Positions 14,758-32,611 of a stretch of DNA of 40,692 nt are shown one piece after another. The stretch comes from Lachnospiraceae bacterium V9D3004. GTDB lineage: Bacteria; Bacillota; Clostridia; Lachnospirales; Lachnospiraceae. The notes below the pieces were generated by a model. That model saw nothing but the letters and a program-made list of their open reading frames with translations. It was not told the origin of the DNA and ran no database searches. A program made the position numbers and the translations under genes. The DNA is taken from positions 1-40,692 of the forward strand of contig JHWW01000020.1 in NCBI GenBank assembly GCA_000621985.1, written 5' to 3'. Within the stretch, counting starts at the first letter, position 1. Each line of letters opens with the position of its first letter.

Positions 14758-14781
14758 AATAATTTTCCTTTCTAATAAAAA

Positions 14782-17353: not shown

Positions 17354-17405
17354 GTAAGGCCTCCGTTGTTTTGGGGTGTTTGGGAAATAGTAAACATTTC
17401 CTCTT

Positions 17406-18328: not shown

Positions 18329-19360
18329 TTATATTAATCCAACAATTTTCTCAGCTATTCTCGCTGCGCCATTACCATCATACAATTCTTTTCCGATATT
18401 TGAATAATGCTCATAATCCAGCTCTCCGTCAATAAATGCACGTACCCTGTCAACTGCTTTAGATACGGTATCATCCGGATCATTACGCATATCCCCGGCA
18501 TATACAATCGCATCATGTTTTAACAATGCATTAACACCGTTTATCTGGTTATCGGCTATTATATAATTAATTACCGGTATTCCCATTGAGCACAGCTCCG
18601 CAACAGTAGTCCCACTCGCAGATACTGCCAGATATGACTCAGCCATAACATTCCAGATATCAGGAACATTGATATAAACCTTCATCCTATCAATATTAGC
18701 ATCTGCCAGTTTTTGCAACTTGTCTATATTATTGCAAAACCTTCCGGCAATAACGTTAATACATACATCTTTACCGATACAAGAAGAATTCAGTAATCCT
18801 TCTGAAATACGGATAAGCGCATTATATGGATCAGACCCACCTGAAGTAACCATTATCTTTTTTTGATCATTTATCCCACGTTTTGTCATTCTGAATTCTC
18901 GTCTTAACGGAGTATACCTGCTTCCCAGAAGATAACTGTCACATGCACATCCCTGATAATTGTCTGAAGATGCATCAATCGAATAATTGATTATTACCGA
19001 TGCAGAATAATCGAAATTCATAATATCATCTATATATACAACCGGAATCATTTTCATTAATTCCTTCATATATACCGGTGTCACCTCATATGAATCGAGC
19101 AACATACATTTAATATCTTTTTCAATTATTATATCTTTTAATAAGCATGTTTCAGAATCTTTATCTGTATAATCATTATTCAGACATATATTTTCATATC
19201 CACGCCCGGTTATAAACTCTTTCGTTTCCGGATCAGATATAATGAAAATGACATCCTCACCTTTATCCTTTAATGCGTCAGCGATTGTCATACATCTCAT
19301 TACATGTCCCATAGATATATGTTCGTTAGCATCTGCTCTGATACCTATCATAGTTCTCAC
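18329..19360 (-). CDS. pseG: PseG-like UDP-sugar hydrolase, copy B
   Basis: 343 residues from GTG 19360, which overlaps the pseH stop (GTGA); ATG 19351, three codons on, is also possible. It opens with GIRADANEHISMGHVMRC, keeping the catalytic His and the PseG N-terminal pattern, and has VSASGTTVAELCSMGIPV in the second lobe. Directly after pseI and pseH, it is the better candidate for the true PseG of this operon. Compared with copy A it differs in the TSGGSDP and LGSRYTPLR stretches, so the two are old paralogues rather than a recent duplication. Confidence 0.85.
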   Translation of the reverse strand: MRTMIGIRADANEHISMGHVMRCMTIADALKDKGEDVIFIISDPETKEFITGRGYENICLNNDYTDKDSETCLLKDIIIEKDIKCMLLDSYEVTPVYMKELMKMIPVVYIDDIMNFDYSASVIINYSIDASSDNYQGCACDSYLLGSRYTPLRREFRMTKRGINDQKKIMVTSGGSDPYNALIRISEGLLNSSCIGKDVCINVIAGRFCNNIDKLQKLADANIDRMKVYINVPDIWNVMAESYLAVSASGTTVAELCSMGIPVINYIIADNQINGVNALLKHDAIVYAGDMRNDPDDTVSKAVDRVRAFIDGELDYEHYSNIGKELYDGNGAARIAEKIVGLI

Positions 19361-19911
19361 TCAATTTCATATTTATTAAAATGATTCTTATTACGGATTA
19401 AATCCCATTCCTCTTTTAAAATACTCATAAGATACAAGTCATAATATTCGCCGTTTTTTCTGATAGCCTGCCTTGCTATGCCTTCAACAGTTGCTCCAAT
19501 TCTTTTCATCCATCGAACCTGGTTCATATTATTACTCATGATCTCAAATGCACTCTTATTTACATTTAATACACTGAAAGCGTAATCGTACAGATTCATA
19601 TTTACGTCAACAATATTCTGAAGGCTGCGTCCCTCTTTTTCCGCTATATATCCTCCCGAGTGAATAATACTGTTTTCCTTATCCCAATCCACCAGACATA
19701 TAAGACCAACAGGCATTCCGTCAAGATCGATGATTCGATAAAATGAATCCTTATCTTTACTGATCTTTTCAAACCATTTTTTCTGTTCCTCAATAGTCAG
19801 CTTCGGATCTGTATACATGAATTTAGTGATATCGGGTCTCATACGCCATTCCATTATTGTTTCAAGATCAGATTCCCTAATTTTACGAAAACATCTTTTT
19901 ACATTTTCCAT
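19357..19911 (-). CDS. pseH: UDP-amino-sugar N-acetyltransferase PseH
   Basis: 184 residues from ATG 19911 (AAAGG 10 bases upstream; the TTG at 19929 has no better site). GNAT fold of the RimJ/RimL type, with MEWRMRPDITKFMYTD near the start, which is very close to known PseH proteins, and IHSGGYIAEKEGRS at the acetyl-CoA loop. PseH acetylates the 4-amino group of UDP-4-amino-4,6-dideoxy-N-acetyl-altrosamine. It lies between pseI and PseG copy B in a tight run. The acyl donor may not be acetyl-CoA here, given the acyl-processing genes next door; that is inference. Confidence 0.87.
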   Translation of the reverse strand: MENVKRCFRKIRESDLETIMEWRMRPDITKFMYTDPKLTIEEQKKWFEKISKDKDSFYRIIDLDGMPVGLICLVDWDKENSIIHSGGYIAEKEGRSLQNIVDVNMNLYDYAFSVLNVNKSAFEIMSNNMNQVRWMKRIGATVEGIARQAIRKNGEYYDLYLMSILKEEWDLIRNKNHFNKYEIE

Positions 19912-19940
19912 AGTTCCTGAACCTTTCAATAGGTAATATA

Positions 19941-20972
19941 TTACATGATTTCTTCCGGTCTTATAGGATCCCCAAACTCATAATCACACTTTGCTTTTTC
20001 ACCAATCAGCTGATAATAATACTTGGGCTTTATACCTATTGCCGGCCTGACACTTTTGATATTATCAACGCTGAACACATCTCCTTTTTTTATACTGCTT
20101 ACCGCAACAAGGGATCTGCGTCCGTTTAATCCGCTCTTCTCGTTTTCCGTAAGGTCATATGTCGGCCTTCCAACAGCCTTTACAGCGTTATGAACATCTT
20201 CAACCATCTGTGCAAATTCAGTCATTTCCATTGAAAAACCTGAATCAGCACTTTCCATATCTCTACTCAGACATACATGCTTTTCAATTACTTTAGCCCC
20301 ATATCCCACTGCAAGAACCGGAGCTACCGAGCCAAATGAATGATCCGACAACCCAATCACTTTGTTGAATCTCTTTTCCATGTCTGAAATAACGGAAAGA
20401 TTAAGATCTTCATATTTTGCGGGATATTGACTGCAGCACTTTAAAAGTATTACATCTTCATTGCCATTCCTCGAACATGCAGCCAAAGCCTCATTAATCT
20501 CTTCAATATTTCCCATACCACATGACATGATAATAGGTTTATGCTTACTTGCAACATACTCAATAAGCGGAATATCAACCAGTTCAAAAGAGGCGATCTT
20601 ATAGAAACCAACGTCTAAATTTTCCAGGAAATCAACAGCCGTCCTGTCAAATGGCGTTGAAAGAAAATCAACTCCTACAGAAAGGCATTTATCTCTCAAC
20701 TTGTCCTGCCATTCCCATGGAGTGAATGCTTCTTTATATAAATTATAAAATGTATATCCATCCCACAATCCACCTTTAATCCTGTAAGGTTCCTTATCAC
20801 AATCAATTGTAAGGGTATCAGCCGTATATGTCTGAATCTTAACGCAATCAGCTCCGGCTTTTGCCGCCTCTTCAATGATCTTATATGCATTTTCAATTTT
20901 ACCGGCATGATTTGCTGACATTTCAGCTATAACATACACATCATTTTTAATCTTTTCAAATAAACTAATCAT
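19941..20972 (-). CDS. pseI: Pseudaminic acid synthase
   Basis: 343 residues from ATG 20972 (AAGGGG 9 bases upstream). NeuB-type TIM barrel: VIAEMSANHAG near the N-terminus, ADCVKIQTYTADT, FLSTPFD, GLSDHSFG and VIEKHVCLSRDMES. A C-terminal SAF (antifreeze-like) domain begins near RRSLVAVSSIKKGD. The KGGLWDGYTFYNLYKEA stretch is characteristic of PseI rather than NeuB or LegI. It condenses the 6-deoxy-altrose derivative with phosphoenolpyruvate to a nonulosonic acid. It begins within a few bases of the stop of the acyl ligase gene, which places the two on one transcript. Confidence 0.93.
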   Translation of the reverse strand: MISLFEKIKNDVYVIAEMSANHAGKIENAYKIIEEAAKAGADCVKIQTYTADTLTIDCDKEPYRIKGGLWDGYTFYNLYKEAFTPWEWQDKLRDKCLSVGVDFLSTPFDRTAVDFLENLDVGFYKIASFELVDIPLIEYVASKHKPIIMSCGMGNIEEINEALAACSRNGNEDVILLKCCSQYPAKYEDLNLSVISDMEKRFNKVIGLSDHSFGSVAPVLAVGYGAKVIEKHVCLSRDMESADSGFSMEMTEFAQMVEDVHNAVKAVGRPTYDLTENEKSGLNGRRSLVAVSSIKKGDVFSVDNIKSVRPAIGIKPKYYYQLIGEKAKCDYEFGDPIRPEEIM

Positions 20973-20989
20973 TAACATGTTCCCCTTAT

Positions 20990-22399
20990 TCAAAGATTCT
21001 TATACAACTTCTTTCCTGATTCATTCTTTGGGATAAACTCAATATAGTTAACTTCAAACGCTTTCCTGTTAAGCCCGGTTTTTTCCGATATATAATTCAA
21101 TACAGAATCTTCAATACCTTTTGATGTAACAAATATTCTCATATGATCATCCTCGCCAACACAGGCACACTCCACATCTTCATATTCACTCTGGATTAAA
21201 CGTTCACATTCATCAAGATTCACACGATTACCGTATATTTTTAAGAAACGTTTTTTCCTTCCCACAATATAATAATATCCTTCAGCATCGCGCTTTGCCA
21301 TATCTCCTGTTACAAGCGTACCATGGCGCTCATCACCTTTAGCCAGATCTGCCTTGCACTCTGCATAACCAAGCGTTACATTAGGTCCCTTATACACCAA
21401 TTCTCCAATTGTGTCCGCTTCATCAATCTCATTCCCCTCAACATCAATCAAAGAGAATTCACCCCCGGGAATAGCAATCCCCATGCTACCATATTTTTCC
21501 AATGATTTTTCATACGGAAGATATGACATCCTTGCAGTTGCTTCTGTCTGACCATACATAACATAAAATCTCACATTGTTTTCCAAAGCATACTCAGCAA
21601 ACTCCTTATGAAGCTCAGGTAGCAGTTTTCCTCCTGCCTGCGTCATATACCTTAACGAAGGCAACTTCATCCTGAAGAATCTGAGTTTCTTCAATATCTC
21701 ATAAGTATACGGAACCCCGACAATAGATGTTGCCTGTTTCTCCCTGAAAAAATTCCAGAACGGTCTCTGAGTATAACCGCTTTCTGTCATAAGAATTGTT
21801 GCGCCACATAATAGATGACTATTGATCACCGACAATCCATATGTATAATTCATCGGGAGCATGGTGATGGGGCGTTCTGAACTATCGATCTCCAAATACT
21901 CAACTATAGATTTTGCATTGGCAATGATATTATTATAACTCTGACGAACGAGCTTCGGACTTCCGGTAGAACCGGAAGTAGTCAACAGTAAAGCAAGATC
22001 ATCAAACAATTTGGCCTTTTCTTCAGAATAACGCAACAACGAATAATCATCAAAACTGTAAAGACTGATATTATTATTCTTTAACTCTCCGAATCGGTCA
22101 TTGATACCCTCAGGACACCATATATAATTGGGTTTATATGTCTCCAGAAGATATCCAAGCAATTCCTCATCCAGTTCAGCAGACAACAACAACGGAACAT
22201 TTTCGGAGCCAAGCATACTTACATATCCGACAAGAGATGCAATAACGTTACGACACAATATGAATACAAGATTTCTGGTGCCAATAACATTTTTTATATC
22301 ATTTACTGTCTGTATTAATTCACCATAAGTTATTGTTTTCCCGTCATCAGATATTGCCGCCAATCGATCTGCATCTTTTTTTTCAATATTAAAAAACAC
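20990..22399 (-). CDS. AMP-forming acyl-CoA synthetase/acyl-ACP ligase (ANL family)
   Basis: 469 residues, short for the family. P-loop-like LLTTSGSTGSPK (about 138-149), YGQTEA (282-287), TGD (364-366), GRKKRFLKIYG hinge and a C-terminal catalytic Lys in NESGKKLYKNL are all present, so it should be active. ANL enzymes make an acyl-adenylate and pass the acyl group to CoA or a carrier protein. It sits in a run with LuxE, LuxC and an acyl carrier protein, directly before pseI. I infer that it loads a short or hydroxylated acid on the nearby carrier protein or CoA for use in glycan building. The acid cannot be read from the sequence. Confidence 0.82.
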   Translation of the reverse strand: MFFNIEKKDADRLAAISDDGKTITYGELIQTVNDIKNVIGTRNLVFILCRNVIASLVGYVSMLGSENVPLLLSAELDEELLGYLLETYKPNYIWCPEGINDRFGELKNNNISLYSFDDYSLLRYSEEKAKLFDDLALLLTTSGSTGSPKLVRQSYNNIIANAKSIVEYLEIDSSERPITMLPMNYTYGLSVINSHLLCGATILMTESGYTQRPFWNFFREKQATSIVGVPYTYEILKKLRFFRMKLPSLRYMTQAGGKLLPELHKEFAEYALENNVRFYVMYGQTEATARMSYLPYEKSLEKYGSMGIAIPGGEFSLIDVEGNEIDEADTIGELVYKGPNVTLGYAECKADLAKGDERHGTLVTGDMAKRDAEGYYYIVGRKKRFLKIYGNRVNLDECERLIQSEYEDVECACVGEDDHMRIFVTSKGIEDSVLNYISEKTGLNRKAFEVNYIEFIPKNESGKKLYKNL

Positions 22400-22415: not shown

Positions 22416-23492
22416 CTATTTCTTTTCAAACGTGTCACTGCAACCCCTTACTTCAGCATTCTTCATTCGTCCATATATCTCAATATACTTTCCTTTTCTT
22501 CCACATGGGCAATCATCTTCACCTAATACACAGCCCATATCTTCCGTCAATATTGAATGCCCCGGATATGACCATGGAAGTGAAGATAATACCTGAACTG
22601 CCCCTCTTTTGCCATTCTCACATACCGAGAAATCCTTCATATCTCTTATTATAACATCCGAAAAAACACTCGCATGCAAATGACCGCATTCGCATTCCAT
22701 ATATATACAACCGGTCTGTTCAACCATTCCGTAATAATCGTGGACGCTTTTTATTCCACACACTTCATTAAGCCCTGACTTGAATTCTTCTTTTGATACA
22801 GCTTCATTGATCAGCTTCTTCCAGCCGCCTCCATGTATCATTACACCATTTTCCAAAGGAAGATATTCACCGATATCTTTTAACTTTTTATAAAAATACT
22901 GCCATATCATATATGTAAAACCAAACAAGAATATGGTCTGTCCAGAATACTTCTCAAGAAACTGTCTGATCTCATCAATATTAAGTTCCATATCATCTGT
23001 AAATGCATATATTTTCTTAGAACCAAATAAAGAGAAACCGAGAATTCCCGCTCCTCTTGCCGAGAACATATTACGATTCTTAAGAACCGACGGACAGTCC
23101 AGTATTATCATCGGCATCCTTGAATTGCCTGTATATTCAGACACGATCCTTGTAAGAACTTTTTGCTGCATACCGGCAGTCTGCCTATCAAGAAATATCT
23201 TAGAAACCTGCTGTCCTGTAGTTCCTGAAGAAGTCATTGTCTTAAAAATATCTTCATCCGGCACACATTTCAGTTCCATTTGCTTAAATATCTTAACCGG
23301 CAAGAAAGGAATATCATCCAAAGAGTCATATTTTGTTCTGCCATTATGAAGTACGTCAATGAAACGCCTGTATTCCGAACAATCATTATAATAATGATCA
23401 GTAAGCTCATTAAGTCTTTCAAGAAGCAGGCTGTTCTTCTCAGTATGAGCATCAGTGTATGGATTTCTGTCAAGCATGGTATCTAATATCAT
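22416..23492 (-). CDS. LuxE-type acyl-protein synthetase, copy A
   Basis: About 358 residues from ATG 23492; TTG 23504 is an alternative, directly after GGGGAG. LuxE domain: adenylate-binding TSSGTTGQQVSK near residue 90, GGGWKK in the middle, YGMVEQTGCIY, a Cys pair ECECGH and DDCPCGRKGKY, and a conserved RGCSDT at the C-terminus. In bacterial luciferase systems LuxE activates a fatty acid with ATP, holds it on a C-terminal Cys and hands it to LuxC. The Cys in RGCSDT, shared with copy B, is the likely acceptor. No luxA, luxB or luxD is present, so light production is not its role. Confidence 0.87.
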   Translation of the reverse strand: MILDTMLDRNPYTDAHTEKNSLLLERLNELTDHYYNDCSEYRRFIDVLHNGRTKYDSLDDIPFLPVKIFKQMELKCVPDEDIFKTMTSSGTTGQQVSKIFLDRQTAGMQQKVLTRIVSEYTGNSRMPMIILDCPSVLKNRNMFSARGAGILGFSLFGSKKIYAFTDDMELNIDEIRQFLEKYSGQTIFLFGFTYMIWQYFYKKLKDIGEYLPLENGVMIHGGGWKKLINEAVSKEEFKSGLNEVCGIKSVHDYYGMVEQTGCIYMECECGHLHASVFSDVIIRDMKDFSVCENGKRGAVQVLSSLPWSYPGHSILTEDMGCVLGEDDCPCGRKGKYIEIYGRMKNAEVRGCSDTFEKK

Positions 23493-23576
23493 TCCGGACC
23501 ACAACTCCCCTATTTACTTACATTTTTGAAATGTACATATCTTCACTTTACCTACATTCTAATAAAGAATTAATTT

Positions 23577-24845
23577 TCAATTAACAATCCTGCTCATAGA
23601 TCCTATCAAATCGTATCCATCCCATATCACATCTATGTCCAGTGTTTTTCCGAAATCAACAACCCTGTCAATTCCTCTGAAACTATTATTAATTACATAA
23701 TCCCTGACTTTATCTTCCGATATGCCACATACAGCACATGTCTGAACCTTAGTATCAGATAAAACTGCTATATCTTCAAGCGAATTAATTGTACAATCGT
23801 AAAACAATCCATATCTTCCACGGCAGCTGTTTACCACATCCGAAGGGATCGTATCAAGCTTACAAACGTATAGTAGATTATCATACCTTTTTACTTCTGA
23901 TATTATACAATTCCTTGAAGAGTTATCGTCACTCATTATCATCTCACACAAGTCGGCATACTTCCCGCTCACCTTGATATCTGCCAGATCATACTTAACA
24001 GCAGTCTTGGCAACGCTTGTCCAGAATCTCTCCCTGGCATAATCTGTTTGGTCACACTCTGTACTGACCGCTTCCGCATTTACACAATCTGTTGCATCCT
24101 CGCATGTCTTATTCCCAGATTTAATAAAACATATCAAATGTGGTGTAGAACATGCATTCTGATCCATAAGATATGTATCATTATAGAAGCCTTCAGCCAG
24201 TTTATCCAACTCCTCGTCTGACATCTCAAGAATAGTATCTGCATCAACAATTCCAAACGAATACCTGTCTGCAAAAGTAATCTCCGTACTTCTTACCGGC
24301 AGTTCTATACTTCTGATATCACGAATCGTGTTGTCGCCGCCCCATATTACCCTGACATCACACATTGAAGAGAATTCTTCAGTACATGCCCTCTCAGACC
24401 GATCATATCTTACAAATGAAGTCATATTATATATATCCTTATATTCCTCTTCCTTAATGACATCATTCATTATTCTAAGCATACAGTTGATCTGTGGAAA
24501 TTCCTTAGAAGGTATACGCACTATATTAGAATTCCCTGCAAGAAGTCCGAAGGCATAGGTAAACATACAGTTTACAGGCACATTAGACGGAGCTATGTGA
24601 AATACAAGTCCTCTGCCCATGTGTATCTGATTATCAAACCTGCTTATGTAATCCTCTTTTTTCTTCCGTATGTTTGACTTCCTGGCCCAGAATGCAAATG
24701 TCACAACATCCGGGTAAGTTTTTGCCTCAGAGTCGCGAAGAATAGCAGTGGAATATGAATTTAAAAAATCACATACCTGTTCAGAATATACAGGCAACAC
24801 TTTCTTATATAGCTGTCTATTATCGTTTCCACACAAATACTCCAT
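23577..24845 (-). CDS. LuxC-type acyl-CoA/acyl-enzyme reductase, copy A
   Basis: 422 residues from ATG 24845 (GGAGAGG 5 bases upstream). Aldehyde-dehydrogenase-like fold: HIAPSNVPVN (about 83-92) in the nucleotide-binding part, RVIWGGDNTIR, and DQNACSTP with the catalytic Cys at about 232. LuxC reduces a Cys-bound acyl group to the aldehyde with NADPH. Against copy B it carries an extra ~20-residue insert (about 246-268) with three Cys and several acidic residues just after the active site. It is followed by its LuxE partner in the order LuxC-LuxE, the reverse of the other pair. The product aldehyde is unknown. Confidence 0.86.
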   Translation of the reverse strand: MEYLCGNDNRQLYKKVLPVYSEQVCDFLNSYSTAILRDSEAKTYPDVVTFAFWARKSNIRKKKEDYISRFDNQIHMGRGLVFHIAPSNVPVNCMFTYAFGLLAGNSNIVRIPSKEFPQINCMLRIMNDVIKEEEYKDIYNMTSFVRYDRSERACTEEFSSMCDVRVIWGGDNTIRDIRSIELPVRSTEITFADRYSFGIVDADTILEMSDEELDKLAEGFYNDTYLMDQNACSTPHLICFIKSGNKTCEDATDCVNAEAVSTECDQTDYARERFWTSVAKTAVKYDLADIKVSGKYADLCEMIMSDDNSSRNCIISEVKRYDNLLYVCKLDTIPSDVVNSCRGRYGLFYDCTINSLEDIAVLSDTKVQTCAVCGISEDKVRDYVINNSFRGIDRVVDFGKTLDIDVIWDGYDLIGSMSRIVN

Positions 24846-24851
24846 AAACAC

Positions 24852-24884
24852 CTCTCCATTCTCCCCTGTTTCAAGTAAGGAGAG
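24852..24884 (-). promoter_or_regulatory. Hairpin that could mask the LuxC copy A ribosome site
   Basis: On the minus strand CTCTCC (24879-24884) is complementary to GGAGAG (24852-24857), which is the ribosome site of the LuxC gene starting at 24845. The loop is 21 bases. A short GC stem lies just upstream (TCCC-GGA-GGGA). Pairing would hide the ribosome site; the stem is only 6 bp, so significance is uncertain. Confidence 0.35.
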
Positions 24885-24950
24885 TATAATAATCCCTCCG
24901 GGATATAATAACCAAAGCGTGTTTGAAAAAAGCTTTATTCAAGATTGTGA

Positions 24951-25190
24951 TTAAAACTCGATATCATAATTAGCAGAAAGTATTTCCTTTCCCTTTTCAT
25001 AGGAACTCAAATCAATAATATCGTCAGTATCCATCATAATATCAAATGCATCTTCAATCGCAGCTATCAAAGTCATATGTCCTACTGAATCCCAATTTGC
25101 TATCTGCTGATATTCAAGTCCTTCCAACTGCTCTTTGGCTACCTCCAAAGTTTCAATAAATGCCTGATTATACTTTTCCAAATTTGTCAT
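24951..25190 (-). CDS. Acyl carrier protein
   Basis: 79 residues from ATG 25190, set by GGAGG 8 bases upstream. It is acidic, helical and carries NWDSVGHMTLIAAIED, where the Ser (about residue 35) is the phosphopantetheine site (DSV in place of the usual DSL). The C-terminal half (DIIDLSSYEKGKEIL) is as in other carrier proteins of glycosylation clusters. It is unlikely to be the housekeeping AcpP, since no fatty-acid synthesis genes are near. It probably carries the acyl or ketoacyl intermediate handled by the LuxC, SDR and ligase genes around it. The SDR gene upstream ends at 25213, 22 bases before this start. Confidence 0.87.
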   Translation of the reverse strand: MTNLEKYNQAFIETLEVAKEQLEGLEYQQIANWDSVGHMTLIAAIEDAFDIMMDTDDIIDLSSYEKGKEILSANYDIEF

Positions 25191-25212
25191 TTTCATGTCC
25201 TCCATTATATGA

Positions 25213-25962
25213 TTATTTATGACCGCCATTTATAGTTATAACAGTCCCATTTATTATATTCATATCATCTGATAGCATATTAATAACAACATCTGCTATT
25301 TCAGATGGTTCAATCTTCCTTCCTAATGCTGTATGCCTGATCGGCTCCTTGGGATCGCTTCCTTCAAAAACCTTACTCATATCAGTATTAATAAGCCCCG
25401 GCGCAATGGCATTAACTGTTACACCATACTTCATAGTCTCTGCTGCAAATGATTTTGTGAAAGCAACCAGTGCAGCTTTTGATGAACCATATACAGCATT
25501 TCCCTCGTATACCTCTTCTGCTGCAGTCGAGGCAACATTAACGATTCTCCCTGATTGCTGCCTGCTCATATTGCGCATTACAAGTTGAGAGAAAATCATA
25601 GGCGCAATAACATTAACCATGTACAGCTGTTTAACAAATTCCATTTTTGTAAGCTGGAATAATCCCATATGTGCAATACCGGCATTATTAATTAATATAT
25701 CGATAGATTTCTTTTGAGAATTAATATGTTTATAAGCATTCTTTATACTATCTTCAGACGCAAGATCTGCAATAACATTCTCTATTGTTATATCGTATTC
25801 TTCTTCCAGTCCGGTAATATATTCCCTAAACTCTTCCCGGTCAGATCTGGTTATCGCCCATATACTGCATCCCTCCATTGCAAAGGCTTTTACAAAAGCT
25901 TTTCCAAGCCCTCTGCCTGCTCCGGTAATAATCGCGTTCTTCCCTTCTAATCTTCTCATCAT
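25213..25962 (-). CDS. Short-chain dehydrogenase/reductase, copy A
   Basis: 249 residues. Cofactor loop TGAGRGLG (about 13-20), NNAG (92-95), catalytic Ser about 145, Tyr 158 and Lys 162 in the YGSSK motif, and GLINTDM near the C-terminus. It is FabG-like in layout, and the position directly before the carrier protein gene fits reduction of a 3-ketoacyl or hydroxyketone intermediate with NAD(P)H. Its start overlaps the end of LuxC copy B by 4 bases. A related SDR (30029-30775) lies 4 kb upstream; the two share the early WA-TR and GRGLGK/NRGIGR patterns and may be paralogues. Confidence 0.88.
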   Translation of the reverse strand: MMRRLEGKNAIITGAGRGLGKAFVKAFAMEGCSIWAITRSDREEFREYITGLEEEYDITIENVIADLASEDSIKNAYKHINSQKKSIDILINNAGIAHMGLFQLTKMEFVKQLYMVNVIAPMIFSQLVMRNMSRQQSGRIVNVASTAAEEVYEGNAVYGSSKAALVAFTKSFAAETMKYGVTVNAIAPGLINTDMSKVFEGSDPKEPIRHTALGRKIEPSEIADVVINMLSDDMNIINGTVITINGGHK

Positions 25963-27170
25963 TCATATTCTCCTATATACACAAATCTGGACATATTTTC
26001 TATCATCTTATAACCATCCCATATGAATTCAAGTCCCATTGTCTGTCCAAGCAGAACTATTCGGTCTACCCCCCTGACTCCGTATTTATATACTATATCC
26101 CTAATATCTTTTTTGTCTATTCCAAGCACGGAAACGGTCTGACATTGCTTTGTCAGAACCGGCACAATATCGTCAAGTTCCCCGGCATAATATTCAAAAA
26201 AATAACCTCCACTGTTTTTATACTCCATAAGTTCAGGATACAGATTGTCTACCTCAATCCTTACAACATAATTATCATCTGAAACCAGCTTCATACCTTT
26301 ATGACCCATCCCAAGCGTACAAAAAGACGTATACTTATCAACAGCCTGTATAGGTTTCATGTCATAATCTTTAACTGCTAATTCACCTAATTTACTCCAA
26401 AAGAGTTTTCTGGCCTCTTCGACTTTATTACCTGTCCAGACAACAAGTCTCGGAGAACTGCAGGCATTCTGATCGGTATAATATGTATCTGTATAAAATC
26501 CTTTTGCCACCTCATCCGCATCTTGAAGAAGATAATAATCAGAATCAATAACCGCAATGGAATGTCTGTCTGCAAATGTCATTTCTATAGCTCTTGGCGG
26601 AAGCACAGCTTTTCTTATTTCCCTTATCGTTCTGTTTCCACCCCAGACAATTCGTACATCACATATGTCAGACAACTCCTGTGTAATGATATCACTGTGA
26701 TCATATCTGATAACGCATATATAACCTGCAAGATAATTGAATTCATCCTCTAACAACTTATTCATTGCATCACATATTATATCAACCTGTTCAAATTTCT
26801 TATTAGATACCCTTATTAACGTAATATTCCCCGCCAACATAGACGAAGTCATAGAAACGGCAAAATTAACCGGAACATTAGAAGGCGCAACATGAAATGC
26901 AACACCTCTTCCGATACGACACTTCCTGTCAATATGTTTATCTCTGTTTTTTTCTATGGAAGCTTTTCTGATCCAATATGCATATGAAATAACATCAACA
27001 AATTTTTTACTTCTTTTATCATTTAATAATTCACGTGACAAAGCCCCCAAAAAAGCTACAATCTTATCTGAAAACATCGGCAGGACGGAAATCTGCGGCA
27101 TTTCACACAAAATATCATGATTACCTACAAGGAATTCAAGTTCTTCTGTATTTATCTGCATATGTATCAC
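25959..27170 (-). CDS. LuxC-type acyl-CoA/acyl-enzyme reductase, copy B
   Basis: 403 residues from GTG 27170, which has AAGGGGG a few bases upstream; ATG 27161 is the alternative. The reading overlaps the end of LuxE copy B by about 35 bases in another frame. HVAPSNVPVN (about 93-102), RIVWGGNRTIR and DQNACSSP (catalytic Cys about 237) match copy A, without its Cys-rich insert. It should reduce an acyl thioester to an aldehyde with NADPH. Order here is LuxE then LuxC, then SDR and carrier protein. The two LuxC proteins are clearly related but diverged throughout, so they may serve different acids. Confidence 0.86.
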   Translation of the reverse strand: MIHMQINTEELEFLVGNHDILCEMPQISVLPMFSDKIVAFLGALSRELLNDKRSKKFVDVISYAYWIRKASIEKNRDKHIDRKCRIGRGVAFHVAPSNVPVNFAVSMTSSMLAGNITLIRVSNKKFEQVDIICDAMNKLLEDEFNYLAGYICVIRYDHSDIITQELSDICDVRIVWGGNRTIREIRKAVLPPRAIEMTFADRHSIAVIDSDYYLLQDADEVAKGFYTDTYYTDQNACSSPRLVVWTGNKVEEARKLFWSKLGELAVKDYDMKPIQAVDKYTSFCTLGMGHKGMKLVSDDNYVVRIEVDNLYPELMEYKNSGGYFFEYYAGELDDIVPVLTKQCQTVSVLGIDKKDIRDIVYKYGVRGVDRIVLLGQTMGLEFIWDGYKMIENMSRFVYIGEYE

Positions 27171-28221
27171 TACACCCCCTTAACTCAGCATTCTGCATTC
27201 TTCCGATAATTTTAACATACTTTCCTTTACGTCCGCACGGACAGTCATCTTCACCAAGAACAATACCCTCATCTTCCGTAAGCAAAGAATGTCCCGGATA
27301 AGAATGCGGAAGCGCGGAAACAACCTGAATAATTCCTTGTCTGCCATGAGAACAAACAGAAAAATCCTTAAAATCACGAATAATAACATCCGAAAAAATA
27401 CTTGCGTGCAAATGACCATATTCACATTCTGCGTATATACATCCGGTCTGTTCAACCATTCCATAATGATCAATAAAATGTTTTATTCCACAGATTTCAT
27501 TGATATCATTTTTAAATTTTTCTCTGGAAACCGCATCAGCCTCTAGTTTTTTCCAGCCTCCGCCTGTCATAAGCCATGCCTTATTCATATCATATTTATG
27601 ATTATTTCTTTTTAATTCCTGATAAAAATGCTTCCACACCATAAATGTGAAACCAAAAATTATAAATGGCTGATCCGGATATTTTTCAAAGAAAGCATCC
27701 AATTTTTCATTATTTAAGCTCATATCATCATTTAAAACATAGACCATCTCTCTGGCAGCCACCTGAAGACCAAGTATTGCAGCACCACGCGCAGTAAACA
27801 TCTGTCTGTCTTTTAATACCGCAGGAGTATCAACAATGATCATCGGCAGTCTTTTTTTTCCCCAATAATCACTCAATATTCGTATCATGACTTTCTGTTG
27901 AATCATAGCAGTCTCTTTATCAACATATATCTTGGAAACACTCTGTCCTGTGGTTCCGGATGAAGTCATTACTTTGAAAATATCTTCTCTTTTAACGCTG
28001 AGCAAATCATATTCCTTGAACAGTCTTACCGGGAAAAAAGGAATATCTTCCACAGAATTTACGCTGTTTTTTTTATAATTCACAGCTTCAAGAAAATTAG
28101 CATACTCGGGGCACCTATTATTATGAAATTCTGTAAGTTCAACCAATTCATTGGTCAGCAATTGATTTTTATCCGATCTGTCCAACTCATATGGATTATA
28201 TTTATAAAAATCATCAATCAT
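27136..28221 (-). CDS. LuxE-type acyl-protein synthetase, copy B
   Basis: 361 residues, start ATG 28221 with GGAG 9 bases upstream. It has TSSGTTGQSVSK (about 86-97), GGGWKK, YGMVEQTGCIY, ECEYGHLH, DDCPCGRKGKY and the C-terminal RGCSDT with its likely acyl-accepting Cys (about 350). Similarity with copy A runs over the full length, so they are paralogues. One Cys of copy A's first CEC pair is replaced by Tyr here. It lies 4 bases after the transketolase C-terminal subunit gene and is followed by LuxC copy B. The role is to activate a carboxylic acid for reduction; which acid is unknown. Confidence 0.87.
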   Translation of the reverse strand: MIDDFYKYNPYELDRSDKNQLLTNELVELTEFHNNRCPEYANFLEAVNYKKNSVNSVEDIPFFPVRLFKEYDLLSVKREDIFKVMTSSGTTGQSVSKIYVDKETAMIQQKVMIRILSDYWGKKRLPMIIVDTPAVLKDRQMFTARGAAILGLQVAAREMVYVLNDDMSLNNEKLDAFFEKYPDQPFIIFGFTFMVWKHFYQELKRNNHKYDMNKAWLMTGGGWKKLEADAVSREKFKNDINEICGIKHFIDHYGMVEQTGCIYAECEYGHLHASIFSDVIIRDFKDFSVCSHGRQGIIQVVSALPHSYPGHSLLTEDEGIVLGEDDCPCGRKGKYVKIIGRMQNAELRGCSDTYADKYRRT

Positions 28222-28225: not shown

Positions 28226-29206
28226 CTATGCTCCTATATTCTTCAGAATTTTTGTGTATATCTCATCTGCAAGCAACCCTACTTGTCCAAGCATATAGTT
28301 TCTTCCGCCCATTTTGCAGTTTGCATCGTTGATTCCAATAAAAAGCTGCCTGCAGTTCCAACCATTTCCGGCTAATACTTCAGAAACAGCTGAACCCATA
28401 CCACCGATTATATTATGCTCCTCGACCGTAACTATAAGTTCATGATTTTTCGCCAATTGTCCAATACATTCTTTATCAAGCGGCTTAATCGTATGCATAT
28501 TTACAACTGTAGGTTTTATACCCTTTTCTTCTTCAAGCATTTTTGACGCTTTTAACGCCTCAGTAACCATATCAATTCCCGTGGCAATCAATGCGATTCT
28601 TTCTCCGTTCTGTAATTGAACGGCTTTTCCTATTTCAAATGCATAATCATCGCTGTAAACCATCGGGATAGACGTGGTTCCGCATAAACGCATATATACA
28701 GGTCCTTTAATAGATGAGATTGCTGACATCATCTTCACCGCTTCCGTACAATCTGCCGGCGATACTACGGTCATATTAGGAATACTTCTCATAAATGCAA
28801 TGTCATTCAACGACAAAAGAGCAGTTCCTGACCAGCCTGATGTAAGTCCTGCCGATGAACCTATTGCTTTTATATCAAGATTCATATTTCCCATAAGGTG
28901 TCTTACCTGATCAGCACACCTGAATGTTACAAATGGAGCATATGTTGTAACATAAACCTGTAATCCCTCCATTGCCATCCCCGCAGCAATTCCAAGCATA
29001 TTTTGTTCAGCAATTCCGACATTGTAAAATATATCCGGATACTTTCCTGTCATTCTTTCAAGTCCTGAGAATCTTGACAAATCTGCTGTAATAACAGAGA
29101 TATCATCCCTTGATTCCGCCACTTGATCAAATCCAATACTCCATACCGAAGGATTAATGCCCATAATAGACCATGAGCGCATGTTTCTCCTATTATACTC
29201 TATCAT
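28226..29206 (-). CDS. Transketolase, C-terminal subunit
   Basis: 326 residues: pyrimidine-binding domain plus C-terminal domain of a split transketolase. The NVGIAEQNM motif (about 62-70) provides the Glu that activates thiamine diphosphate. TYAPFVTFR, GLTSGWSGTA and VEEHNIIGGMGSAVSE follow as in split transketolases of secondary-metabolite and glycan clusters. It pairs with the gene just upstream (overlap 14 bases) to form one active enzyme. GGAGG is 6 bases before the ATG. It moves a two-carbon ketol group to an aldehyde acceptor. Central-metabolism transketolase is usually a single ~660-residue protein, so a dedicated role in this cluster is more likely. Confidence 0.9.
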   Translation of the reverse strand: MIEYNRRNMRSWSIMGINPSVWSIGFDQVAESRDDISVITADLSRFSGLERMTGKYPDIFYNVGIAEQNMLGIAAGMAMEGLQVYVTTYAPFVTFRCADQVRHLMGNMNLDIKAIGSSAGLTSGWSGTALLSLNDIAFMRSIPNMTVVSPADCTEAVKMMSAISSIKGPVYMRLCGTTSIPMVYSDDYAFEIGKAVQLQNGERIALIATGIDMVTEALKASKMLEEEKGIKPTVVNMHTIKPLDKECIGQLAKNHELIVTVEEHNIIGGMGSAVSEVLAGNGWNCRQLFIGINDANCKMGGRNYMLGQVGLLADEIYTKILKNIGA

Positions 29207-30032
29207 ATATGCCCTCCTCTATCCTTCGAATCATATATTCGCTATCCTGCTCATTCAATCTTGCATGATGCGATTCAGGTCTATTCTCAATACTTGGGAG
29301 ACCATATCCTTTAATTGTCTCAGCGACAATAGCTAACGGCTTCCCCGGATGCTGCATATTGAAAGCCTCGTATAATTCTTCTATTGAATGTCCATTGACA
29401 CCGATTGATGCAAATCCAAATGCCTCAAGTTTCTCTTTCAATGACCCCATAGGCATAATATCTTCTTCCCGACCATCAAACTGCATATGATTATTATCAA
29501 TTATAACAATAAGATTATCTAACGAATACTTGGCGGCAGACATAAAACCTTCCCAATTCGATCCCTCGTTACATTCACCATCTCCCAAAAGAACATATAC
29601 CTTATAATTCATGCCTCTTCTTCTTGCCGCAAGAGCCATACCAATACCAACAGACAGTCCCATTCCCAGACTTCCTCCAGAATAATCCAAACCAACATCG
29701 GTATTCCATGGATATCCGGCAAGCAGACCACCATCAGTGTGAAAGCTCATCAACTGTTCATTATTGATCATTCCAATTATTTCAAGAACGGAGTAACTTG
29801 CAAGATAACAATGTCTTTTGCTTGTAATAAACCTGTCTCTGCCATCCCAGTCAGGCTCATCCTTATGATAATTCATTATTCCACCATACAATGTAGCAAT
29901 TATATCCATTGAAGAAAAACTTCCACCAAGATGTGTTCCGGCTTTTCCTGTTGTCTGTGCCATCTCGAGAGCTTTAATACGCATTAACTTTGCAAGTTTA
30001 TAACAATCATCTATAATATTTTCATTCATCAT
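29193..30032 (-). CDS. Transketolase, N-terminal subunit
   Basis: 279 residues: the diphosphate-binding domain of thiamine-dependent transketolase. The GDGECNEGSNWEG motif (about 150-162) with the later IDNNHMQFDG binds Mg and thiamine diphosphate; GTHLGGSFSS near the start contacts the substrate, as in transketolase. It is split from the C-terminal half encoded immediately downstream. The start ATG overlaps the SDR copy B stop (ATGA). Split transketolases often supply two-carbon units in antibiotic and polysaccharide pathways. I cannot tell from sequence which ketose or keto acid is the donor. Confidence 0.9.
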   Translation of the reverse strand: MMNENIIDDCYKLAKLMRIKALEMAQTTGKAGTHLGGSFSSMDIIATLYGGIMNYHKDEPDWDGRDRFITSKRHCYLASYSVLEIIGMINNEQLMSFHTDGGLLAGYPWNTDVGLDYSGGSLGMGLSVGIGMALAARRRGMNYKVYVLLGDGECNEGSNWEGFMSAAKYSLDNLIVIIDNNHMQFDGREEDIMPMGSLKEKLEAFGFASIGVNGHSIEELYEAFNMQHPGKPLAIVAETIKGYGLPSIENRPESHHARLNEQDSEYMIRRIEEGIYDRV

Positions 30033-30775
30033 ACTCGTCCCCCGTCAAGTATCATTATCTGTCCTGTCATGTATTCTGCATCTTCCGAAGCAATATACAA
30101 TGCAGCCTTTGCAACTTCTTCCGGTCTTCCCATTCTGTGTATGCTCATTCTGTCCAAAACCTTATTCAATTCCTTTTCCGACTTATAATTACCCATGTCA
30201 GTATCTATGAGTCCGGGCGCTATACCATTAACTCTGATATTGTACGGACCAAGCTCTCTTGATACTGACTTTGTAATCCATATCAATGCCGCTTTACTAG
30301 AACCATAAGCCAGATAACCGGGACTGGTTTCAATACCGCCTACTGAACACATATTAATGATACAGCCTGATCTCTGCCTCATCATCTGTCTGGAAACAAG
30401 TTGCATTATTTGAACCTGTGCAAACACATTTATATCATATACTTCTCTCATTTTTGACATTGAAGTCATTGCAAACGATCCCCCATAAGGAATTCCGGCA
30501 TTATTTATCAACACATCTATATTGTTCTTATCAGAAAGTATCTGTTTTATCCCTGTCTTGATTTCATTTTCATCCGCCAAATCAAAACATATATTCTTTA
30601 TCCAGACATTGCATTTTAACGCAATATCTTCAAGCTCTGCCTCAAATGACTCGTCTTTTTTTCGTGTACACGCCCATATGTTATAACCGTTTTTAGCAAA
30701 GGCATTAACAAGCTCTCTCCCAATACCACGATTTGTTCCTGTAATGATTGCATTTTTATTATTTGAAGATACCAT
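30029..30775 (-). CDS. Short-chain dehydrogenase/reductase, copy B
   Basis: 248 residues with TGTNRGIG (about 12-19), NNAG (91-94), Ser 144, Tyr 157, Lys 161 (YGSSK) and GLIDTDM. Classical SDR of the FabG type. ATG 30775 follows GGAG at 11 bases. It heads the transketolase, LuxE, LuxC block, overlapping the transketolase N-subunit by 4 bases. A reductase that acts on the keto product of the transketolase is a reasonable guess. It is related to copy A at 25213-25962. Confidence 0.87.
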   Translation of the reverse strand: MVSSNNKNAIITGTNRGIGRELVNAFAKNGYNIWACTRKKDESFEAELEDIALKCNVWIKNICFDLADENEIKTGIKQILSDKNNIDVLINNAGIPYGGSFAMTSMSKMREVYDINVFAQVQIMQLVSRQMMRQRSGCIINMCSVGGIETSPGYLAYGSSKAALIWITKSVSRELGPYNIRVNGIAPGLIDTDMGNYKSEKELNKVLDRMSIHRMGRPEEVAKAALYIASEDAEYMTGQIMILDGGRV

Positions 30776-30797: not shown

Positions 30798-31457
30798 TTA
30801 TTTAAATACTCTTCTATCTTTATTTTCTGCGATTTCACGTGCGGGGTTACCCATAACAATTTTATAATCCCTTACATCTTTTAAAACTATTGCCCCCATT
30901 GATATGATAGTATCATGCCCTATCTGTATATTTTCCCGTATTGCAGCAGCAGCACCTATATAAGTATTTTCGTCTACTCGGGTTCTCCCTCCAATAAAAG
31001 CGAAGGAAGAGATTTGGCAATTATTTCCAATTCGCACATCATGCCCGATTATTGCATTTGCATTAACCCATACATTATCACCAATATGTGCATCCTCAGA
31101 AACAAGTACATTTTTTTCAATTATAATAACACCTTCACCCAAATATGCGCTTTTACTTATTTTTGCCAGTGGACAAACTACTGTTGCAAGTTTATATCCT
31201 GAATTTTTTACTTTATTTAACAATAGCTCTCTCGAGGCCGGTTCTCCGACGGCAATAGCAATTTCAAGCGATTCAGGTGAATACAGTTCAACAATCCTCT
31301 CATAAGGCATAACCTGATAACCTCTGAAAGTACCCTGTTCCTTTGTATCATCTATAAAAATGATATCATCCCATAAACCTCTCAGTTCCGGATAAGAAAC
31401 AAGCATTTCCTCCAGTTCTCTTCCGGAACCTCCTGCTCCGTAGATCGCTATATCCAT
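30798..31457 (-). CDS. NeuD/PglD-type hexapeptide-repeat acyltransferase
   Basis: 219 residues. An N-terminal Rossmann-like sugar-nucleotide domain (MDIAIYGAGGSGRELEEM; about 1-90) is joined to a left-handed beta-helix of hexapeptide repeats (about 95-205, e.g. LGEGVIIIEKNV, IGDNVWVNANAIIGHDV). This is the design of NeuD and PglD, which acetylate amino sugars or nonulosonic acids with acetyl-CoA. PseH already covers the standard pseudaminate step, so this enzyme may add an acetyl or other acyl group to a second amino sugar or to the finished nonulosonate. It lies 20 bases after the aminotransferase gene, which may provide its substrate. Confidence 0.85.
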   Translation of the reverse strand: MDIAIYGAGGSGRELEEMLVSYPELRGLWDDIIFIDDTKEQGTFRGYQVMPYERIVELYSPESLEIAIAVGEPASRELLLNKVKNSGYKLATVVCPLAKISKSAYLGEGVIIIEKNVLVSEDAHIGDNVWVNANAIIGHDVRIGNNCQISSFAFIGGRTRVDENTYIGAAAAIRENIQIGHDTIISMGAIVLKDVRDYKIVMGNPAREIAENKDRRVFK

Positions 31458-31477: not shown

Positions 31478-32611
31478 TCACTCCAATGACTCTTTAACAC
31501 ATTTAGCAATAGTACTTACATCTTTTACACTCAATCCACTATATATAGGCAAACACAATATTGCATCCGACATGCTGCGTGCAACTTTCAGATCTGCATC
31601 TCTGTATTGATTTCTAAAGCAGGCCTGATCTGCAGTAATTGGCCAGAAATATTTTCTTGCATGTACACCGATTTCTTTCAAATTATCATATATCTTATCC
31701 CTGATATGCATACTGTTATTACATGTAACCACAATAGGGAAATAAGCATAATTTCTATTTTGTTCTTTAGTATTCAATAAGATTCTAATACCTTCTTCAT
31801 CTTCAAATTCAGATACATATTTATCATGACACTTTTTTCTGTTTTCAATTTCATCGGTAATGTGCTTTAGATTACATAATCCCATGACAGCTGAGAACTC
31901 ATTCATCTTTGCATTTGCCCCTACAGAAACTGTCAGACTTTCGCCTCTTATCCCAAAATTCTTAAGATTATATAATCGTTCATAACGTTCATGATCTTTA
32001 CAAATCACTGCCCCGCCTTCTATTGTATTGAACACCTTGGTTGCATGGAAGCTGAAAACAGATGCATCACCGTAATCACCTATTCCCCTCTCCTTATATC
32101 TTATACCAAAAGCATGAGCAGCATCATATATCACTTTTAAACCATATTTGTATGCAATCTGTTCTATGTAATCAACATTACATACATTACCAAATACATG
32201 AACAGGCATAATTGCCACTGTTTTTGGAGTGATCAGGTTCTCTATCTTTGTCTCATCTATTGTTCCATCAGATTCTTTAATATCACAAAAAACAGGCTTA
32301 AGACGGTTCCTGACTATCGCATGAGTAGTTGAAATAAATGTGAACGGAGTTGTAATTATCTCTCCTCCATCCGGAAAACCAAACGATTGAATAGCTAATT
32401 CCAAAGCCATATGTCCATTAACCGTCAGAGATAACTCCGGCACTTTAAGAAATACTGCCAACTCCTTTTCTAATTGTCTATGATATAAACCCATATTGGT
32501 AATAAAATGACTGTCCCACAGAGGCTTTATAGCCTCTATATATTCTTCATATGACGGCATAGAAGATCTGGTAACATATATATCCTGTTGATCCATTTCA
32601 TTTTTCAGCAT
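31478..32611 (-). CDS. DegT/DnrJ/EryC1-family sugar aminotransferase
   Basis: 377 residues; a pyridoxal-phosphate enzyme that transaminates nucleotide-linked 4-keto (or 3-keto) sugars using glutamate. The Lys of FHATKVFNTIEGG forms the cofactor aldimine, and YDAAHAFG holds the Asp and His that contact the ring. The N-terminal pattern IYVTRSSMPSYEEYIEAI followed by HFITNMGLYHRQLE resembles VioA/QdtB-type enzymes that act on dTDP-sugars more than canonical PseC. Since pseB is directly upstream and there is no other aminotransferase in the window, it probably fills the PseC role, but a separate dideoxy-amino sugar is possible. GGGGAG lies 12 bases before the ATG. Confidence 0.87.
   Translation of the reverse strand: MLKNEMDQQDIYVTRSSMPSYEEYIEAIKPLWDSHFITNMGLYHRQLEKELAVFLKVPELSLTVNGHMALELAIQSFGFPDGGEIITTPFTFISTTHAIVRNRLKPVFCDIKESDGTIDETKIENLITPKTVAIMPVHVFGNVCNVDYIEQIAYKYGLKVIYDAAHAFGIRYKERGIGDYGDASVFSFHATKVFNTIEGGAVICKDHERYERLYNLKNFGIRGESLTVSVGANAKMNEFSAVMGLCNLKHITDEIENRKKCHDKYVSEFEDEEGIRILLNTKEQNRNYAYFPIVVTCNNSMHIRDKIYDNLKEIGVHARKYFWPITADQACFRNQYRDADLKVARSMSDAILCLPIYSGLSVKDVSTIAKCVKESLE

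Follow-up and report, generated by a model that had tools for sequence, protein, structure and literature searches.

The window analysed here, 40,692 bp from Lachnospiraceae bacterium V9D3004 (contig 18, bases 1-40692, of a 3.4 Mb genome labelled G000), contains a flagellin glycosylation island in which two pairs of LuxE- and LuxC-like genes lie among genes of pseudaminic acid (Pse) synthesis. On balance, the block probably makes hydroxylated short acyl chains, of four and probably also six carbons, which are N-acylated onto amino sugars of the flagellin glycan. The gene content, the intact active-site motifs, the separate conservation of two cassettes and the linkage of one of them, cassette A, to PseH and other pse genes elsewhere were observed directly; the acid used, and which acyltransferase takes which chain, are inference on our part.

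Two LuxE/LuxC cassettes in a flagellin glycosylation island

Both LuxE genes and both LuxC genes are open, full-length reading frames with scores above the Pfam cut-offs (24.9 bits for LuxE, PF04443; 21 bits for LuxC, PF05893). They carry the motifs described in the initial annotation, TSSGTTG and RGCSDT in each LuxE and DQNAC in each LuxC, and with their catalytic cysteines in place all four belong to these families in the wide sense. RGCSDT, including Cys355, and TSSGT were invariant across a six-sequence LuxE alignment; the RGCS cysteine of LuxE2 aligned with that of LuxE 7xc6_E, and DQNAC of LuxC2 with DQQAC of the solved lux reductase 7xc6_A. A CPCGR motif, of a kind found in PaaK-type ligases, is present in both LuxE C-termini, and 7xc6_E has no such motif in its alignment with LuxE2. 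LuxC1 and LuxC2 are the only PF05893 matches in the genome, and a third PF04443 match (772-1104) lies within a protein of 435 aa (448-1755) resembling a phenylacetate-CoA ligase.

The proteins share families and cysteine motifs with the fatty acid reductase of luminescence, and the same acid-to-aldehyde chemistry is expected of them, a claim that homology supports. They differ from a luminescence LuxCDE set in scoring far below the NCBIfam models of the long-chain luminous enzymes (85.6 and 90.8 bits against a cut-off of 550 for LuxE, 30.6 and 52.8 against 750 for LuxC). As had also been noted earlier, no luxA, luxB or luxD turned up among the 30 window proteins scanned with Pfam, a search that did not extend to the rest of the genome.

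The main genes of the island run from flagellin (40645) down to 16328, all on the minus strand, in the order flagellin, a small open reading frame (ORF), a Maf/PseD-like gene, genes for two large proteins, PseB, a DegT aminotransferase, a NeuD-type acyltransferase, a short-chain dehydrogenase/reductase (SDR2), the N- and C-terminal halves of a transketolase, LuxE2, LuxC2, SDR1, an acyl carrier protein (ACP), LuxC1, LuxE1, an AMP-forming ligase, PseI, PseH, PseG, PseF and a further PseG. The Lux block is flanked by PseI, PseH, PseF and two PseG on one side and by PseB, the PseC-like aminotransferase, the Maf/PseD-like gene and flagellin on the other. The initial annotation rightly placed an ACP and an SDR amid the pse genes, but overlooked the split transketolase, the second SDR, the NeuD/VioB-type acyltransferase and the AMP-ligase. 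Overlaps between neighbours are 4 bases for SDR2 and the transketolase N half, 14 for the two halves, 35 for LuxE2 and LuxC2, 4 for LuxC2 and SDR1, 17 for SDR1 and ACP and 4 for AMP-ligase and PseI, lengths that rest on ORF coordinates with mechanically assigned start codons. The transketolase is split into a separate N half with the thiamine diphosphate (ThDP) domain and a C half with the pyrimidine-binding and C-terminal domains. The translations contain YGSSK in both SDRs, the ThDP stretch GDGECNEG in the transketolase N half and DSVGHM in the ACP; the meaning of these motifs, as of TSSGTTG, RGCSDT and DQNAC, is general knowledge.

These genes form cassette A (AMP-ligase, LuxE1, LuxC1, ACP and SDR1) and cassette B (SDR2, the transketolase halves, LuxE2 and LuxC2), which sequence comparison identifies as two separately conserved units and not tandem copies. 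Identities are 56% between LuxE1 and LuxE2, 35% between LuxC1 and LuxC2 and 41% between SDR1 and SDR2. In a quick LuxE tree of 80 rows, without bootstrap, LuxE2 falls in a clade of eight rows with a Shimodaira-Hasegawa-like approximate likelihood ratio (SH-aLRT) of 100. A transketolase C half adjoins LuxE in seven of the eight, the last (L035; L- and G-numbers, such as L037, are labels of comparison loci and genomes) starting at the edge of its contig. LuxE1 belongs to a different set of 14 rows, 11 of them with an AMP-ligase as neighbour (SH-aLRT 94). The tree omits L034, whose match a filter had split, the low-scoring L055 and L056, and the 435-aa window protein. Low identities, and the placement of the two LuxE in separate, differently linked groups, led us to reject a tandem duplication as the source of the pairs. 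As to the other cassette members, ACP-like ORFs in L040 and L047 share 74% and 76% identity with the window ACP, all seven top matches of the AMP-ligase (59-60% identical) come from LuxE loci, and six of the seven best matches of SDR2 (60-70% identical) lie beside transketolase genes.

Relatives of the cassettes and of their neighbours

Linkage of cassette A was examined in 394 genomes of the GTDB order of the Vibrio tapetis genome (the Vibrio order), which we take to be Enterobacterales in the GTDB scheme and to include Succinivibrio. LuxE1 was matched in 49 genomes, seven of them weakly (best E 8e-20 to 7e-18) and dropped, leaving 42 strong loci in which up to 21 kb around LuxE was read, some stretches being short (4.4 kb for L177, 13.5 kb for L158). 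According to our own models these 42 loci hold LuxC (42), ACP (41), AMP-ligase (41), SDR (35), a PseI-like gene (32), PseH (32) and transketolase (4), and PseH directly adjoins ACP or SDR in 32. The curated PseI model placed PseI within 15 kb of LuxE in 28 of the 42, bearing out a LuxE-pse linkage outside the window. Anywhere in the genome, PseI was found in 39 of the 42 LuxE genomes against 101 of the 352 others (odds ratio 32, p 2.6e-16, by a Fisher's test that takes no account of relatedness). Cassette A is a common companion of pse operons, and its conserved linkage to PseI and PseH supports the use of LuxE and LuxC in a surface glycan.

The window PseH, which scores just below its cut-off, has as its three best matches (34-40% identical) the PseH of pse loci without LuxE but with FkbH (L191, L192 and L197, with FkbH scores of 271.7, 251.3 and 311.5 bits, cut-off 146.65). 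FkbH proteins are makers of glyceryl-ACP. ACP-model matches lie between FkbH and PseH as ORFs of 81 aa (L191) and 75 aa (L197); L192 and L197 match this model at E 1e-8, and the locus map at E 1e-6 shows L191 and L197 but not L192. This arrangement suggests that PseH-type enzymes take hydroxyacyl groups from a carrier protein, and that the three loci make an N-glyceroyl-type pseudaminic acid from carrier-bound glycerate. All three are from the window's family, with FkbH near PseH at L191:2556-4987, L192:7243-9661 and L197:2517-4955.

In a PseH tree, 31 rows from Vibrio-order LuxE loci formed one group apart from the LuxE-free rows, with a support (93/72) below the usual line for strong support. 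The window PseH lies outside this group and joins four rows from its own family (84/74), of which three lack LuxE. For the window, the tree thus supports the idea of a carrier-protein donor and not a tie between PseH and LuxE. The second match of L142 was left out of this tree, one (L091) of its 34 LuxE-positive rows is long and probably false, and 12 of 20 LuxE-negative pse loci, chosen from high-scoring PseI matches and not at random, gave a PseH row, five of these being PseG-fused domains.

As to relatives of cassette B, LuxE2 was matched at E 1e-40 in 15 of 391 genomes of the class. The order SDR, transketolase N half, C half, LuxE, LuxC, or a transketolase with one LuxE/LuxC pair, was found among others in L033, L036, L037, L040, L043, L050, L081, L083, L084, L085, L087 and L139-L141. 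A second LuxE from outside the LuxE2 clade is present at six of the eight clade loci (the window, L033, L036, L040, G216 with L080/L081 and G293 with L082/L083), the remaining two rows being pieces cut by contig ends. Doubling is nevertheless frequent rather than constant, because L034, with a LuxE2-like gene (64% identical to LuxE2) beside a transketolase C half, has no second LuxE or AMP-ligase in 17.9 kb. Records named Lachnospiraceae and Oscillospiraceae carry the doubled set, as do two genomes outside the window's family, and Succinivibrio (L043) has a related arrangement. L087 and L139 have NeuD, ACP, SDR, SDR, transketolase N half, C half, AMP-ligase, LuxE and LuxC in a row, with a methyltransferase between NeuD and ACP in L139; this is the order described within the flagellar genes of Dickeya zeae EC1, plus a further acetyltransferase at the end (PMC4522980). 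No E. coli record matched the LuxC-LuxE-ligase DNA of L139. A Rhizobium plasmid carries transketolase N half, C half, a hexapeptide-type acyltransferase, a small protein, AMP-ligase, a glycosyltransferase, DegT, LuxE, LuxC and SDR.

Several transketolase-LuxE clusters contain acetolactate-synthase-like ThDP enzymes (L034, L040, L140 and L141), and L040 an HpcH/HpaI aldolase; with the ketoacyl-ACP synthase (KAS) III-like gene of L141, it is as if further carbon-carbon steps were used there.

The DegT aminotransferase is 38-40% identical to the DegT proteins of L139 and L159 and 29% identical to the true PseC (524.7 bits) of L047, a locus in the window's family where pse genes stand with cassette A and no cassette B. 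DesI is the best-scoring model both for the window DegT and for the DegT of L139. The window protein is closer to DesI than to PseC and is not a recognisable PseC. From these relatives the window looks like two systems combined, in which cassette A goes with the pse genes and cassette B with a system for an acylated 4-amino sugar. The genome also has RmlB (503 bits), so that dTDP-4-keto-6-deoxyglucose should be available to a DesI-like aminotransferase. On contig C2 of the same genome, three PseC-like genes score better than the window DegT and are still below threshold.

Proposed chemistry and known glycans

In the proposed route, LuxE would adenylate a small hydroxy-acid, for which malate is the best candidate, and hand it to its own cysteine, and LuxC would reduce it to an aldehyde such as malate semialdehyde. 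The initial annotation had the aldehyde itself enter the glycan, which is not supported; because ACP, AMP-ligase, SDRs and acyltransferases are present, an N-acyl product with the aldehyde as intermediate is indicated, and the aldehyde as final decoration was set aside as the leading interpretation. In cassette A the SDR would reduce the aldehyde to dihydroxybutanoate (a C4H6O3 acyl), the AMP-ligase would load this on ACP, and PseH would transfer it onto the amino nitrogen that ends up as N7 of pseudaminic acid. In cassette B the split transketolase would add a C2 ketol unit to the LuxE2/LuxC2 aldehyde, giving 4-hydroxy-5-oxo-6-hydroxy hexanoate, and SDR2 would reduce the ketone to give a 2,4,5,6-tetrahydroxyhexanoyl chain, hydroxylated at 4, 5 and 6. 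The goal of this C6 chain may be the same sugar or, through the DesI-like aminotransferase and the NeuD-type acyltransferase, a 4-amino-4,6-dideoxyhexose. Residue masses predicted from this scheme are 376.148 for Pse bearing acetyl and C4H6O3, 436.169 for Pse bearing acetyl and C6H10O5 (450.185 when O-methylated) and 496.190 for Pse bearing both chains, against 316.127 for plain Pse5Ac7Ac; a 4-amino-4,6-dideoxyhexose would weigh 247.106 with C4H6O3 or 307.127 with C6H10O5.

A more general form of this scheme can be put forward tentatively. Cassette B might be a two-carbon homologation machine building 3-deoxy-aldonoyl-type chains (C4, C6 and perhaps C8 as in L033) for N-acylation onto flagellar or surface amino sugars, with C2 units from central sugar phosphates. 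If so, transketolase would gain a role in glycan N-acyl biosynthesis, and homologation would explain the 450 Da Treponema sugar, the unassigned '102 Da' and similar glycan masses discussed below. In L033 (8143-15022) two transketolase pairs and two LuxE/LuxC pairs stand in one run, perhaps for a longer chain.

The best model for cassette A, by analogy, is the conversion of malate to tetronate in V. cholerae O1, whose tetronate genes are VC0248-VC0252, one of them reportedly LuxE-LuxC-like; no transketolase is known among them. Two near-identical Vibrio-order loci, L175 (6791-12115) and L176 (8273-13536), have ACP, AMP-ligase (473 aa), an alcohol dehydrogenase of the iron type and an 825-aa LuxE-LuxC fusion one after the other, presumably the gene order of the V. 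cholerae set; they lie beside NeuB/NeuD-like genes, and their LuxE is 37-38% identical to LuxE1. In the available descriptions, V. cholerae O1 acylates perosamine, a 4-amino-4,6-dideoxyhexose, with the C4 dihydroxy-acyl tetronate, loses its O antigen without WbeL, a protein of 471 aa with a putative ATP-binding domain (PMC3441752), and makes the tetronate from malate (PMC10746206). The roles of such a cassette, whose expected product is a 2,4-dihydroxybutanoyl group, would be filled in the window by ACP, AMP-ligase, LuxE, LuxC and an acyltransferase, with an SDR in place of the alcohol dehydrogenase. The V. cholerae product differs in belonging to an O antigen and not to flagellin, and the likeness drawn here is one of description and role.

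Among flagellar islands, Aeromonas Group II (A. piscicola AH-3) is alike in having ACP, SDR, AMP-ligase, LuxE and LuxC amid pse genes, downstream of pseH, annotated as fatty-acid genes, and differs in a single LuxE and LuxC and in that no transketolase is named in the accessible part of the report (PMC7874193). The window has the gene content of such an island in another order, its AMP-ligase abutting PseI and its ACP not abutting PseH. By contrast A. caviae Sch3N, a single-sugar strain for which the available text does not state absence of luxCE, carries plain Pse5Ac7Ac (PMC3958885). AH-3 flagellin bears a 376.14 Da Pse derivative, and a terminal mass of 102 Da on it is unassigned; since the 376 Da sugar persists in an fgi-1 mutant, the 60 Da by which it exceeds Pse5Ac7Ac can be added without fgi-1 (PMC7874193, as far as that text is accessible). 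A Pse core with acetyl and C4H6O3 (102.03) would weigh 376.148, although nine combinations on our short list fit 376.14, eight of them with the same mass.

Treponema denticola flagellin reportedly bears a monoacetylated nonulosonate with a 2-methoxy-4,5,6-trihydroxyhexanoyl group (attributed to Kurniyati, 2017), an acyl structure that none of the literature consulted here confirmed. A transketolase step on malate semialdehyde would yield exactly this C6 pattern of hydroxyls at 4, 5 and 6, and the reported sugar, Pse-type with one acetyl and a hydroxylated C6 acyl, would equal the predicted cassette B product plus O-methylation. The comparison made here is one of mass, and the window differs in that no methyltransferase family was found among the 30 scanned proteins. 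Core plus acetyl plus C7H12O5 is 450.185, against 450.2 Da given for the FlaB glycan in the part of the report available (PMC9481697), although 11 combinations fit that value, seven with one mass. Shewanella oneidensis flagellin, as described in the accessible text, carries a 274 Da monoacetylated nonulosonate with a nitrogen-free O-methylated moiety of 236, 250 or 264 Da, and its sfmABCDE system likewise needs a ThDP enzyme and an SDR, but its five genes include no LuxE/LuxC and its ThDP enzyme is IlvB-like rather than a split transketolase (PMC3765264). Since S. oneidensis uses other genes, such chains form a class with more than one way to make them.

Enterobacterial flagellin islands are alike in having LuxE, LuxC1-4, ACP, CaiC and FabG (73 strains with LuxE, 80 with LuxC); they differ in that the accessible text does not mention transketolase and only suggests the product, a 'liposugar' (PMC4875605). 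Published Dickeya flagellar loci have LuxC, LuxE, AMP-ligase, two transketolase genes, two SDRs, ACP and an acetyltransferase, with one LuxE/LuxC pair, no pse genes in the published list as available and no function test described there (PMC4522980, PMC6206727). The suggestion that a doubled LuxCE set is of an uncharacterised kind therefore claimed too much, flagellar islands with Lux, ACP and AMP-ligase genes having been published (PMC7874193, PMC4875605, PMC4522980, PMC6206727, in the parts accessible). What is new here is the doubled cassette with transketolase inside a pse island, with a new testable chemical proposal. Hydroxyacyl N-acylation by LuxE/LuxC genes is not proposed in the available portions of the literature on LuxE/LuxC with pseudaminic acid or flagellin glycosylation, nor was a use of transketolase in glycan N-acyl biosynthesis met in related literature, and a Clostridium pseudaminate paper (PMC13317340) does not mention lux, transketolase, acyl carrier or ACP. 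The 'fatty acid' and 'liposugar' flagellar-island genes of Aeromonas, enterobacteria and Dickeya thus receive a concrete chemical proposal with exact masses and, if it is true, the origin of odd acyl chains on flagellar pseudaminic acid becomes testable.

Alternative readings and the remainder of the island

Several observations weigh against the hydroxyacyl reading. In this organism the product of the block is a prediction. PseB, PseF, both PseG and PseI of the PseBCFGHI pathway score above cut-off, but the pathway has a gap because the curated model finds no PseC above its cut-off (423.5) in the window or the whole genome. A co-occurrence check of LuxCE beside pse genes, as advised earlier, held in the Vibrio order and gave a mixed result near home. 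Elsewhere in the genus, nine genomes gave no full-length LuxE match, two of them giving weak partial ones. In the family a near-full-length match is present in 20 of 150 genomes, the window's included; surroundings were read for 14 of the other 19, and of the eight whose LuxE is at least 45% identical to the window's, two have PseI in the same stretch. Within the stretches examined, PseI is at no LuxE2-clade locus but the window's, and a PseI-like gene, by our own model, is present at two transketolase loci whose LuxE is of another type (L084, 407 bits; L141, 391 bits). Cassette A must be an option and not a part of the pathway, because 101 PseI genomes of the Vibrio order lack a strong LuxE, and an oxygen-rich chain does not need LuxCE, because S. 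oneidensis makes its large moiety with other genes. A single C6 chain would not call for two LuxC/LuxE pairs alongside one transketolase; the doubled pairs may serve two products or two reductions within one pathway. A review terms the single Pse-type sugar of AH-3 lateral flagellin 'probably phosphorylated' (PMC3958885, in the section available), and a luxC or luxE deletion was not found in the accessible AH-3 literature.

A role of the cassettes in another surface polymer (capsule or wall polysaccharide), their place in the flagellar island being a coincidence, is unlikely. An exopolysaccharide-like glycan locus on a Deinococcus plasmid does hold cassette A with an acetyltransferase after it, and transketolase-LuxE-LuxC occurs on the Rhizobium plasmid (the plasmid search gave 34 records, 21 of them below 28% identity). 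The sparse PseI of the family loci, and a GC content of 29-39% between about 18 and 40 kb against 40.5-43.1% before that, a pattern fitting imported DNA, would also suit a separate polymer. Here, however, the genes belong to a single run that starts at flagellin, touching or overlapping pse genes at either end, and no polymerase or flippase family was found among the 30 scanned proteins, although the two membrane proteins at 12391-16302 matched no family.

That LuxE and LuxC reduce the carboxylate of a sugar acid, with transketolase lengthening the sugar itself to a higher-carbon or branched sugar, is also quite unlikely. Sugar-like aldehydes are, as general knowledge has it, the usual transketolase substrates, and the DesI-like aminotransferase, PseB and NeuD adjoin the cassette; but AMP-ligase and ACP, each in 41 of the 42 strong Vibrio-order loci, indicate acyl chemistry, and family scans of window proteins revealed no dehydrogenase of the sugar-acid-forming kind.

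Fatty aldehydes or fatty acyls for a lipid-bearing flagellin sugar are the reading suggested by fatty-acid gene annotation in the published accounts (PMC4875605 and PMC7874193, in the parts available), and a lipid decoration was also envisaged in the initial annotation. ACP and FabG-like SDRs fit it, and the KAS III-like gene of L141 and a FabZ gene on the Rhizobium plasmid leave, to the detriment of the hydroxyacyl reading, some room for fatty-type chain building near related clusters. We nevertheless regard it as improbable, since general family scans named no ketosynthase, malonyl transferase or dehydratase family in the block beside LuxE/LuxC, AMP-ligase and ACP, the scores against the luminous long-chain models are low, a fatty acyl would hardly fit within the mass of the AH-3 sugar, and transketolase is a sugar-type enzyme; it was rejected as the leading interpretation on these grounds. 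Degenerate or unexpressed remains of an imported cluster, to which the absence of full-length LuxE from the rest of the genus (recent or dispensable genes) might point, are very improbable given intact ORFs with active-site motifs and preserved gene overlaps.

The features of the island are listed in the table below.

Features of the island in the window, with the model scores or matches on which each call is based
Feature	Coordinates	Strand	Evidence
PseG, second copy	16328..17413	-	TIGR03590 158.9 bits, cut-off 153.55
PseF	17406..18104	-	TIGR03584 300.7 bits, cut-off 205.7
PseG, first copy	18329..19360	-	TIGR03590 179.0 bits, cut-off 153.55
PseH-like N-acyltransferase, candidate user of hydroxyacyl-ACP	19357..19929	-	TIGR03585 91.0 bits, just below cut-off 93.1
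PseI	19941..20993	-	TIGR03586 441.6 bits, cut-off 340.25
AMP-forming ligase, 469 aa, candidate acyl-ACP loader	20990..22399	-	PF00501 148.3 bits
LuxE1, acyl-protein synthetase-like (cassette A)	22416..23504	-	PF04443 206.2 bits
LuxC1, acyl reductase-like (cassette A)	23577..24851	-	PF05893 102.4 bits; DQNAC
Acyl carrier protein, DSVGHM site	24951..25229	-	no Pfam match; called from site and relatives
SDR1, 3-oxoacyl-ACP-reductase-like	25213..25962	-	PF00106 172.7 bits; TIGR01830 best NCBIfam match, below its cut-off
LuxC2 (cassette B)	25959..27170	-	PF05893 99.7 bits; aligned to 7xc6_A
LuxE2 (cassette B, transketolase-linked clade)	27136..28221	-	PF04443 191.1 bits; aligned to 7xc6_E
Transketolase C-terminal half	28226..29206	-	PF02779/PF02780; best solved match split transketolase 6yaj
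Transketolase N-terminal (ThDP) half	29193..30032	-	PF00456 117.3 bits; best solved match split transketolase 6yak
SDR2	30029..30775	-	PF00106 173 bits
NeuD/PglB/VioB-type hexapeptide acyltransferase, candidate N-acyltransferase	30798..31457	-	TIGR03570 188.2 bits, cut-off 160.8
DegT sugar aminotransferase	31478..32611	-	DesI model 275.1 bits (cut-off 650); PseC 205.3 (cut-off 423.5)
PseB	32754..33764	-	TIGR03589 539.7 bits, cut-off 407.75
Two-domain glycosyltransferase	35689..37551	-	PF00535 133.6 bits + PF13524 71.7 bits
Maf/PseD-like flagellin nonulosonate transferase	37538..39385	-	PF01973 148.6 bits; NF050051 PseD 145.5, below cut-off 670
Flagellin	39815..40645	-	PF00669 + PF00700

No family was assigned to the large protein at 33963-35525, between the two-domain glycosyltransferase and PseB, and at the downstream end of the island (12391-16302) lie two large proteins of membrane type, 788 and 506 aa long, that match nothing in Pfam. 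The two PseG-like hydrolases, both above cut-off, are 35% identical to each other; they do not pair with the two cassettes, each being 28-35% identical to its seven best matches. L053 and L055-L058, also of the window's family, hold another and more remote kind of LuxE-LuxC, whose LuxE shares 24-28% identity with the window LuxE and near which the AMP-ligase and ACP models matched nothing.

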